Shown here one piece after another: positions 30,063-33,929 of a stretch of 64,000 bases of DNA. The notes beneath the pieces were generated by a model, which did no database searches, was not told the DNA's origin, and saw only the letters and a program-made list of their open reading frames with translations. Source of the stretch: Labedella gwakjiensis. GTDB taxonomy: Bacteria; Actinomycetota; Actinomycetes; Actinomycetales; Microbacteriaceae. The stretch lies in contig NZ_PYAU01000001.1 in assembly GCF_003014675.1 (NCBI RefSeq), positions 3,348,001-3,412,000 of the forward strand, given 5' to 3'. The translations under genes were made by a program, and so were the position numbers. Position 1 is the stretch's first letter; the number at the start of each line of letters is the position of its first letter.

Positions 30063-30141
30063 GGGCGACCTCCTCTTCCACTCGGTCCGTCCAGAGTACC
30101 CATCCCCGTCACCGGCGGTCCGCGGTGTCGGCGGAGTCGTC

Positions 30142-30147
30142 TAATGT
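30142..30147 (+). promoter_or_regulatory. -10 box (TAATGT) for the leaderless helicase gene
   Basis: TAATGT, then 7 bases, then GTG 30155. This argues against a start at GTG 30125, which would lie above the transcript start. Confidence 0.5.
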
Positions 30148-30154
30148 ACTGCGA

Positions 30155-31975
30155 GTGGATGCGGACGGGATGACGGAGAACGGCGAAGCCGGACCCCGCA
30201 TCGGAACCGCCGCAGCGGAGCATCTCTCGCCGGCGTTCCCCGAGCGCGCCGCGTGGGGAACGGTCAGCAAGCTCCGTGCCTGGCAGGCAGAGGCGATGGA
30301 CGCGTACTTCGCCAGCGAGCCGCGCGACTTCCTCGCCGCGGCGACGCCGGGTGCGGGGAAGACCACCTTCGCGCTCCGACTCGCCGCTGAGCTCCTCTCG
30401 CGTCGCACGGTCGACCGCGTCACCGTCGTGGCACCGACGGAGCACCTCAAGAAGCAGTGGGCCGAAGCGGCCAGTCGTGCCGGCATCCGGTTGGACCCGG
30501 AGTTCAGCAACCGCGCAGGCGTCGTAGGCCGCCACTTCCACGGGGTCGTTGTGACCTACGCCCAGGTTGCGACGCGAGCCGCGCTCCACGAGAGCCTCAC
30601 CGCCTCGTCGCGGACGCTCGTGATCCTCGACGAGGTCCACCACGGAGGGGACGCGCTGAGCTGGGGCGATGCGATCCGTGAGGCGTTCTCGCCGGCCGTG
30701 CGGCGACTCTCCCTGACGGGGACGCCGTTCCGATCGGACACCGCGCCCATCCCCTTCGTCACGTACCTGCCGGATCGAGAGGGCATCAGGACGTCGGTCA
30801 CCGACTTCGACTACGGCTACGGGCGGGCCCTCGCCGACGGCGTCGTCCGGCCGGTGATCTTCATGGTGTATGCGGGGCACATGAGGTGGCGGACGAGCAC
30901 GGGCGACGAGATGGAGGCCCGGCTCGGCGAAGGCAACACGAAGGACATCACCTCTCAGGCCTGGCGCACAGCACTCGACCCGGCGGGGGAGTGGATCCCA
31001 TCCGTGCTCCGCGCCGCCGACCGGCGACTGACCGAGGTGCGGCACGGTGTCCCCGATGCCGGCGGTCTCGTGATCGCCACCGATCACTTCGCCGCTAAAG
31101 GCTATGCGGCCATCCTCGAGCGGCTGACCGGGGAAGCTCCCACCGTGGTCCTCTCCGACGACGCCGAAGCGAGCGCGAAGATCGACTCGTTCTCCGAAGG
31201 CACCGGGCGGTGGTTGGTCGCCGTGCGCATGGTCAGCGAGGGGGTGGACGTGCCGCGATTGTCGGTCGGCGTCTATGCGACCTCCGCGTCGACTCCGCTC
31301 TTCTTCGCGCAGGCGATCGGACGCTTCGTGCGTGCCAGGAGACGAGGCGAGACCGCCAGCGTTTTCCTCCCGAACGTCCCGCAGCTCATGAACCTCGCGG
31401 CGGAGCTCGAGCGCGTGCGGGACCACGCGCTCGATCGGCGCCAGGATCCGAACGCCGAGGGCGATCTCTGGAATCCGGAAGACGCCATGATGGGGGAGGC
31501 GAACCGTTCCGACAAGGCCTCGGACTCGCTCATGGGCGAGTTCAGCTTCGAGGCGATAGCGTCGGATGCGACCTTCGATCGCGTGGTCTTCGACGGTGAT
31601 GAGTTCGGCTCCTATGCCGTGCCCGGCACCGAGGAGGAGCTCGACTTCATCGGTATCCCCGGGATCCTCGAGCCTGATCAGGTGCATGAGCTGTTGACCC
31701 AACGTCATCAGCGGCAGGCGCGACGCATCGACGGGAAGAGAAAGCAGGCGCCGCCAGAGGAGCAGCCGCCACAGGCCCTGTATCGCACGCTCAAGGAGCA
31801 GCGGAGTCTGCTGAACAGTCTCGTCGGGCTGTACGCGAAGAACACGAACGAGCCGCATGGCCTCGTGCACGCCGAGCTCCGTCGAGTATGCGGCGGCCCG
31901 CCCGTCGCTCAGGCGAGTGTGACCCAGTTGCAGCAGCGCATCGACTACCTCCGCCGCCGCCTCGGCTCCCACTGA
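30155..31975 (+). CDS. DEAD/DEAH-box superfamily 2 helicase
   Basis: A 606-residue helicase. The Walker A motif TPGAGKT lies at 64-70, motif II DEVHH at 159-163, SLTGTPFRSD is motif III, and QAIGRFVRARR is motif VI. After the two RecA domains the last 170 residues are family-specific and basic. It is close to the DEAD/DEAH helicases found singly in many actinobacteria; substrate unknown. GTG 30155 is chosen for its position 7 bases after TAATGT; ATG 30170 is also possible. The 68-bp repeat array begins just after its stop. Confidence 0.87.
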   Translation: MDADGMTENGEAGPRIGTAAAEHLSPAFPERAAWGTVSKLRAWQAEAMDAYFASEPRDFLAAATPGAGKTTFALRLAAELLSRRTVDRVTVVAPTEHLKKQWAEAASRAGIRLDPEFSNRAGVVGRHFHGVVVTYAQVATRAALHESLTASSRTLVILDEVHHGGDALSWGDAIREAFSPAVRRLSLTGTPFRSDTAPIPFVTYLPDREGIRTSVTDFDYGYGRALADGVVRPVIFMVYAGHMRWRTSTGDEMEARLGEGNTKDITSQAWRTALDPAGEWIPSVLRAADRRLTEVRHGVPDAGGLVIATDHFAAKGYAAILERLTGEAPTVVLSDDAEASAKIDSFSEGTGRWLVAVRMVSEGVDVPRLSVGVYATSASTPLFFAQAIGRFVRARRRGETASVFLPNVPQLMNLAAELERVRDHALDRRQDPNAEGDLWNPEDAMMGEANRSDKASDSLMGEFSFEAIASDATFDRVVFDGDEFGSYAVPGTEEELDFIGIPGILEPDQVHELLTQRHQRQARRIDGKRKQAPPEEQPPQALYRTLKEQRSLLNSLVGLYAKNTNEPHGLVHAELRRVCGGPPVAQASVTQLQQRIDYLRRRLGSH

Positions 31976-31998: not shown

Positions 31999-32370
31999 CG
32001 TCGGGCACCTCTCTCTGCCGGGGGGCGAGGCGCCCATCGGACGTGTATCCAGCACCTGCGGTCGGGGCGTGCTCCCGCGGTCGGACGGGAGGCAAGGCGC
32101 CCATCGGACGTGTATCCAGCACCTGCCGCTGGGTCGGGACTCCCGTTCTGCTGCGGGAGGCAAGGTGCCCATCGGACGTGTATCCAGCACCTGCCGCTGG
32201 GTCGGGACTCCCGTTCTGCTGCGGGGGGCAAGGTGCCCATCGGACGTGTATCCAGCACCTGCCGCTGGGTCGGGACTCCCGATCTGCTGCGGGAGGCAAG
32301 GTGCCCATCGGACGTGTATCCAGCACCTGCCATCGGGTAGCGTTCCACGCTCTGCCGCGGCGCTAAAAAA
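31999..32370. repeat. Tandem array of a 67/68-bp intergenic repeat
   Basis: Five identical 27-bp cores beginning GCCCATCGGACGTGTATCCA lie at 32032-32058, 32099-32125, 32167-32193, 32235-32261 and 32303-32329 (periods 67, 68, 68, 68). The 40-41 bases between cores hold a hairpin, CTCCCG then 8 bases then CGGGAG. Its stem is kept in interval 1 although the loop differs completely; intervals 2-4 are near identical. Diverged half-units flank both ends. All frames are nearly stop-free because 68 is not a multiple of 3, and I see no gene here. It lies between the helicase gene and the tRNA-Leu terminator. Confidence 0.93.
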
Positions 32371-32405
32371 CACAGAAGGCCCGGATCGCGATGATCCGGG
32401 CCTTC
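32365..32405 (-). terminator. Rho-independent terminator of tRNA-Leu
   Basis: A 13-bp perfect stem (32375-32387 with 32393-32405) with a 5-base loop. On the minus strand it is followed by TGTG and six T residues. It is the only terminator here with a real T tract. Confidence 0.88.
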
Positions 32406-32414
32406 CAACTCACG

Positions 32415-32501
32415 TGCGCGAGGGGGGACTTGAACCCCCACGCCCATTAATAGGGCACTAGCACCTCAAGCTAGCGCGTCTGCCAATTCCGCCACCCGCG
32501 C
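32415..32501 (-). tRNA. tRNA-Leu (anticodon GAG)
   Basis: An 87-base class II tRNA. The acceptor stem GCGCGGG pairs with CTCGCGC (one G-T wobble). The D-arm contains TGGCGGAATTGGCAGACGC, the anticodon stem CTAGC/GCTAG encloses TTGAGGT with anticodon GAG, and a long variable arm precedes GGTTCAAGTCC. CCA is not encoded. It decodes CTC and probably CTT leucine codons. Confidence 0.96.
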
Positions 32502-32588
32502 GAGTTGTTTCGGCTCCCAGCTTCGGGCGCCGAGAAACGACGATAGCACGAATTCCGGACGTGTTTTCACACCCTCGAGGGCAGCGGG

Positions 32589-32594
32589 TAGCGT
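32589..32594 (+). promoter_or_regulatory. -10 box (TAGCGT) for the leaderless M20 peptidase gene
   Basis: TAGCGT, 6 bases, then ATG 32601. TTTCAC lies 18 bases upstream and may be a weak -35. Confidence 0.6.
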
Positions 32595-32600
32595 GGACGC

Positions 32601-33929
32601 ATGCCCTCCTCCCCAGACGACCGCACGACACCGGACCTCGAGAATGACGAGACCGTCCGCGTCGCGCGGGATCTCATCCGATTCGACACGACGAACTACG
32701 GCGAAGGGAAGGCGAAGCCGGAGAAGGACGCGGCGGAGTACGTCGCCGCGTATCTGCGTGATCTCGGCCTGGATCCCGAACTCATCGACGCGGCTCCGGG
32801 GCGGACCAGCGTCGTCGCGCGTGTGGCGGGTCGTGATGCCGACAAGCCGGCTCTCGTCGTGCACGGTCACCTCGACGTGGTTCCAGCCGATCCGGCGAAC
32901 TGGTCCGTCGACCCGTTCGCCGGAGAGATCCGAGACGGCATGCTGTGGGGCCGAGGCGCCGTCGACATGAAGAACATGGACGCGATGATCCTCACCGCCG
33001 TGGCCGACCTGGCCCGTGGTGGGGGAGCCCCCGAGCGGGATCTCGTGCTCGCCTTCTTCTCAGACGAGGAGAACGGCGGCGTCTACGGCTCGCAGCACAT
33101 CGTGAAGACGCGCCCTGAGCTGTTCGACGGCGCGACGGAAGCGATCAGTGAGGTCGGCGGGTATTCGATCACGGTCGGTGGACGTCGGGCGTACCTCATG
33201 CAGACGGCGGAGAAGTCGCTCGTCTGGATCCGTCTCCGTGCTCAAGGTGTCGCGGCTCACGGATCGAGGGTCATCGAGAACAATGCGGTGACCAAGCTCG
33301 CCGTCGCCATCGCGGCGATCGGCCGGACCGAGTGGCCGATCCGCCTGACGGAGACGACCACGGCCCTTCTCGCGGAGCTTGCCGAGATCCTCGGCGTCGA
33401 CCCCGAAACCACGGGGCCGGACGAGATCGCCATCGCGACCGGCACGGCCGCCGGCTTCATCCGCGCGTCGCTCCGCACGACGAGCAACCCGACGCTCCTC
33501 GAGGCCGGGTACAAGCACAACGTGATCCCCGACGTCGCCACGGCGCTCGTCGATATCCGCACCCTCCCGGGCGAGGAGGACGACGTCCTGGCCGAGGTGC
33601 GCGCGATCGTGGGCGAAGACATCGAGATCGAGATCGTTCAGCAGGACATCGGACTCGAGACGCCGTTCGCGGGCCCGCTGATCGATGCGGCCGTCGCGAC
33701 CCTCCAGGCGCACGACCCGGAGGCCGTCGTGCTCCCGTATATGCTCTCCGGGGGGACCGACAACAAGGCGCTCTCGCGGCTGGGAATCACCGGCTACGGG
33801 TTCGCTCCGCTCCGCCTGCCGGAGGACGTCGACTTCCCCGCGATGTTCCACGGGGTGGATGAGCGCGTGCCGCTCGAGTCGCTCGTGTTCGGGCGGCGAG
33901 TCCTCGAGGATCTGTTCCGCACCTACTGA
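32601..33929 (+). CDS. M20-family metallopeptidase
   Basis: A 442-residue zinc-dependent peptidase or amidohydrolase of the M20/ArgE/DapE group. HGHLDVV carries His90 and Asp92, and DMKNMD holds a bridging Asp (122). FFSDEENGG carries the catalytic Glu pair near 156. A small dimerisation domain follows, then HGVDERVPLES with the last His. The M. tuberculosis equivalent by synteny is Rv2141c. Substrate unknown. The start lies 6 bases after a -10 box; uppP follows 18 bases after its stop. Confidence 0.9.
   Translation: MPSSPDDRTTPDLENDETVRVARDLIRFDTTNYGEGKAKPEKDAAEYVAAYLRDLGLDPELIDAAPGRTSVVARVAGRDADKPALVVHGHLDVVPADPANWSVDPFAGEIRDGMLWGRGAVDMKNMDAMILTAVADLARGGGAPERDLVLAFFSDEENGGVYGSQHIVKTRPELFDGATEAISEVGGYSITVGGRRAYLMQTAEKSLVWIRLRAQGVAAHGSRVIENNAVTKLAVAIAAIGRTEWPIRLTETTTALLAELAEILGVDPETTGPDEIAIATGTAAGFIRASLRTTSNPTLLEAGYKHNVIPDVATALVDIRTLPGEEDDVLAEVRAIVGEDIEIEIVQQDIGLETPFAGPLIDAAVATLQAHDPEAVVLPYMLSGGTDNKALSRLGITGYGFAPLRLPEDVDFPAMFHGVDERVPLESLVFGRRVLEDLFRTY

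Follow-up and report, generated by a model that had tools for sequence, protein, structure and literature searches.

The tandem array that separates a helicase gene from tRNA-Leu (GAG) in Labedella gwakjiensis is, in our judgement, very probably a locus-specific minisatellite built from a noncoding element conserved in the genus. In the analysed window, a 64-kb (64,000 nucleotides) stretch of the contig, Tandem Repeats Finder places the array at positions 32019-32331, with a period of 68, 4.6 copies, and 92% matches. Exact matching locates its 27-bp core, GCCCATCGGACGTGTATCCAGCACCTG, on the plus strand at 32032-32058, 32099-32125, 32167-32193, 32235-32261, and 32303-32329, so that the cores together span 32032-32329 and their starts are 67, 68, 68, and 68 bp apart. 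The five identical cores reported in an earlier note on this DNA, repeated every 67-68 bp between the two genes, are thus confirmed, and the invariant stretch is in fact 28 bp, because the base after the core is C in all five copies. The same note described diverged outer and near identical inner units, and the comparison of intervals bears this out: intervals 2-4 are nearly identical to each other, and the outer ones are not. Such an array lies far outside what chance would produce. Within the window the core does not recur, and a search of the own genome (one contig of 3,838,939 bases) found the unit nowhere else, the next matches being at chance level. A coding repeat was considered and ruled out, since the periods of 67 and 68 are not divisible by three.

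Two genes converge on the array, which sits 3' of both. The ResIII/DEAD-type helicase gene (30125-31975, plus strand) ends 56 bp before core copy 1. On the other side, tRNA-Leu (GAG) (32414-32501, minus strand; ARAGORN and Rfam RF00005) is followed by its intrinsic terminator at 32373-32407, with arms at 32375-32387 and 32393-32405 and the T run on the minus strand. An M20 peptidase gene and a BacA/UppP-type gene lie beyond the tRNA gene.

The origin of the array is best seen from its relatives. Our comparison set comprised four Labedella genomes, one per species: the own genome (G000), G001, and G002 and G003, which appear to be Labedella populi and L. phragmitis. Each of the three relatives has one complete core at the orthologous place, directly before the tRNA-Leu terminator, and it is core copy 5 of the array that corresponds to this single intact copy. 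Copy number thus differs between related genomes, five cores here versus one intact core in each of the other species; the only addition is a broken half-copy of 22 nt in G001, 46 bp upstream of the intact one. The case foreseen in the earlier note, of a unit missing from all close relatives, is not what we observe. The conserved element consists of the core plus TCTGCCGCGGCGCT and occupies 32307-32364 on the plus strand, being 58 bp long here and 59 bp in the three relatives. It is 81-90% identical between the species, and its 25-nt core 92-100% identical, whereas fourfold sites of the helicase gene are only 44-56% identical between the same species and the intergenic DNA to the left of the element can hardly be aligned. 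Because its identity is so far above that of its surroundings, the single-copy element is probably under purifying selection. Its most likely role would be that of a DNA or RNA binding site, or of a 3'-end site for the convergent transcripts, a suggestion that we make tentatively.

Outside the genus the element was not detected. None of 396 other Microbacteriaceae genomes contained the core within three mismatches of 24 bases. The exact 27-bp core had no match among GTDB genome contigs, a search from which the own and very near records were possibly left out and in which no relative matches all 27 bases; the shorter 22-nt form gave no match among viral contigs, and the whole array none among plasmids and phages. 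Just before its tRNA-Leu terminator, Plantibacter (L067, L070, and L137) carries a conserved sequence of its own, TCGGGTRTCGGCRTSTCGTGGAGTCCGGCGGGAAAACA; it was examined as a related block and rejected, as its similarity to the Labedella element is no better than that of shuffled sequences.

The following scenario would account for these data. As the four species show, the Labedella ancestor had one complete element, about 59 bp long, directly before the terminator, in the gap where the helicase and tRNA-Leu (GAG) genes converge. In L. gwakjiensis the element together with its left flank would have been duplicated in tandem and then expanded to about five units. The GCYGCGG repeats on either side of the single copy are the likely sites between which slippage or unequal recombination took place, and the inner units may have been homogenised afterwards. 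The left flank of the single copy reads TGTTGCGGGAG in G002 and GCCGCGGAAG in G003, its right end is TCTGCCGCGGCGC, and the two sides have a common GCYGCGG-like repeat (GTTGCGG in G002). From one repeat to the other, G002 has 69 bp and G003 has 92 bp, the latter including an insertion of 23 bp. Since the element is 1 bp shorter here, duplication over a distance of 69 bp predicts a period of 68 bp, which is the one observed. Against this route, the exact microhomology is short, being GCGG in G002 and 7 nt in G003. Near-identity of the inner units fits with later unequal recombination or slippage, and the 22-nt half-copy in G001 shows that another species has undergone local duplication at this locus too. 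That this half-copy is broken argues that extra copies are dispensable, and they are probably near-neutral. Expansion, as proposed earlier, is supported, with slippage or unequal recombination as the likely mechanism.

The feature that had first drawn attention to the array was a hairpin with a conserved stem and a variable loop. Pattern matching finds it in interval 1 at 32072-32091 (CTCCCG-CGGTCGGA-CGGGAG), and in intervals 2, 3, and 4 at 32140-32159, 32208-32227, and 32276-32295, respectively. Intervals 1, 2, and 4 match the described CTCCCG-N8-CGGGAG perfectly, but interval 3 reads CGGGGG; the T-G pair ascribed to this change exists as one U-G wobble if the plus strand is transcribed and becomes a C-A mismatch on the minus strand. 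Both arms are indeed unchanged in interval 1, and its loop, said to be entirely different, differs from that of interval 2 at seven of the eight positions. However, the hairpin straddles the junction of two units, and its arms come from opposite sides of the relatives' single copy. The right arm, CGGGAG, has its counterpart in the left flank of that copy (GCGGGAG in G002, ACGGGAG in G001), and the position of the left arm, near its right end, is taken by CTCC, CCCC, or ACCC. Accordingly, the hairpin arises only on duplication and is absent from the single-copy relatives G001-G003. It is also within reach of chance: the window contains about 505 perfect 6-bp stems with loops of 3-12 nt, and 22% of shuffled 68-nt tandem units have one as well. 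In the own genome the exact pattern is found inside the array only, but a control pattern read backwards is about equally rare, so that this restriction carries no information.

As all four intervals derive from one another by copying, the conservation of the stem rests on one comparison, that of intervals 1 and 2, where the right arm lies inside a 12-nt run of identity. The naive probability of retaining the stem is 0.0022 for all 12 stem positions and about 0.017 for the left arm alone, values that were chosen after the fact and apply to clustered changes. We conclude that the hairpin results from the joining of two units and is not the selected feature; that it defines the element, as the earlier note had it, is not supported.

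The same results bear on the idea that the array specifies a structured noncoding RNA, or a series of small RNAs made by processing, in which stems are conserved and loops vary; we regard this as highly improbable. What speaks for such an RNA is that the stem is retained in interval 1 and that the intergenic region as a whole has dinucleotide-shuffle z-scores of -3.5 and -3.8. These scores, however, include the terminator, and dinucleotide shuffles destroy the repeat; with a repeat-preserving permutation and the terminator excluded, the fold of the array has z of only -1.0 on the plus strand and -0.4 on the minus strand, and single units fold no better than shuffles. The structure prediction with covariation that had been proposed as a check gave, in four species, no covariation within the element, the sole compensated pair being in the terminator. 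Neither the compensatory changes nor the Rfam match that would mark a structured RNA family was therefore found for the array. The hairpin is missing from the relatives, and no sigma-70-like promoter was found; the core was examined as a candidate sigma-70 promoter and rejected.

The notable invariant is the core rather than the stem, and in this respect the earlier description is upheld. The spacers of intervals 1 and 2 differ by about 14 changes, none of which falls into the core (naive probability 0.0002). Judged by the sequences, five intact cores next to a diverged spacer could result from selection on every copy or from conversion tracts, either of which would be sufficient. This constancy, along with the 92-100% identity across species, would also be expected if the array were a functional cluster of protein-binding sites, with the core bound by a DNA-binding protein and copy number selected for dosage or titration. 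We find that improbable: a degenerate search of the four genomes with up to three mismatches revealed no further site and hence no sign of a regulon; one intact copy is enough for three species; the spacing of 67-68 bp corresponds to about 6.4-6.5 helical turns, which puts neighbouring cores on different faces of the DNA; and the array lies 3' of both genes. In a related and likewise doubtful proposal, the core of 25-28 bp would be a putative cis element specific to Labedella, either a binding site or an RNA element at the 3' end. Local amplification would have raised its dosage and selection would keep every copy intact, so that it tunes how the convergent helicase and tRNA-Leu (GAG) transcripts terminate or behave at their 3' ends.

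A different question is where the single-copy element itself came from. It may, though we consider this unlikely, derive from the tRNA-Leu/M20-peptidase promoter region as an ancient incomplete copy that was left by a tandem duplication of tRNA-Leu, after which the second tRNA was lost and the array grew from the relic. This proposal concerns origin and is compatible with the minisatellite. TCGGACG-TGT-T-CA-CACC occurs in the same orientation in the core and on the 5' side of tRNA-Leu, the gene order fits such an origin, and the local alignment has a score that 0 of 2000 shuffles exceeded in G000 and 7 of 2000 in G002. However, the score was exceeded by 82 of 2000 in G001 and by 360 of 2000 in G003, the -10-like TAGCGT is not retained in the relatives' elements, and no tRNA remnant was found. 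The similarity between core and promoter is thus significant by shuffling in two of the four species. In L. gwakjiensis the shared motif flanks both sides of tRNA-Leu (32308-32343 and 32555-32594), and here the similarity extends to CGGGTAGCGT. TAGCGT is located 6 bp before the ATG of the M20 peptidase gene and TTCACA 17 bp upstream of TAGCGT (32589-32603), an arrangement also present in the other three Labedella species; this placement suggests a leaderless M20 peptidase transcript.

The minisatellite, in turn, belongs to a known kind, although the earlier note knew of no described element like it. Head-to-tail units of roughly 10-100 bp characterise minisatellites or VNTRs, and the array has about 4.6 units of 67-68 bp. 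Of the described cases, ETR-F/VNTR3239 of Mycobacterium tuberculosis comes closest; it is located in the intergenic region between rnc and fpg1, upstream of fpg1, and across isolates the expression of fpg1 correlates with the length of the repeat (PMC2734929). Both consist of intergenic near-exact direct repeats at one locus in one lineage, and in both cases related species lack the array and have a short intergenic region. In contrast to ETR-F, the Labedella array is 3' of both neighbours, and its copy number was compared between species only. Mycobacterial MIRU minisatellites are similar in being mostly intergenic, arranged head-to-tail, tens of base pairs per unit, and variable in copy number (PMC3635867, PMC2734929); but MIRUs occur at 41 sites dispersed over the chromosome (PMC2734929), whereas our unit occupies one locus in its genome. 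With REP/BIME elements (PMC3733652) the array has in common that it is a short intergenic repeat bearing a palindrome. REPs, however, are dispersed palindromes of high copy number (PMC3733652), whereas here neither the core nor the exact hairpin occurs outside the array and the hairpin is a product of unit junctions. A new class of hairpin element does not hold up. What the locus offers instead is a bacterial minisatellite near its start: relatives have a single copy, the period can be predicted from a short repeat in the flanks, and the hairpin is formed solely by the joining of units. The small genus-conserved noncoding element beside tRNA-Leu (GAG) merits annotation as well.

A separate dispersed repeat, CTTCGACARGCTCAGGGACC, was observed in Labedella, with 29-46 copies in G001-G003 and 12 here at up to two mismatches. 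The intergenic region orthologous to the array locus contains this repeat in the three relatives (G001:C10:3035-3054, G002:C8:304752-304794, and G003:C2:431242-431261) but not in L. gwakjiensis, and copies of the repeat often form facing pairs 40-60 bp apart.
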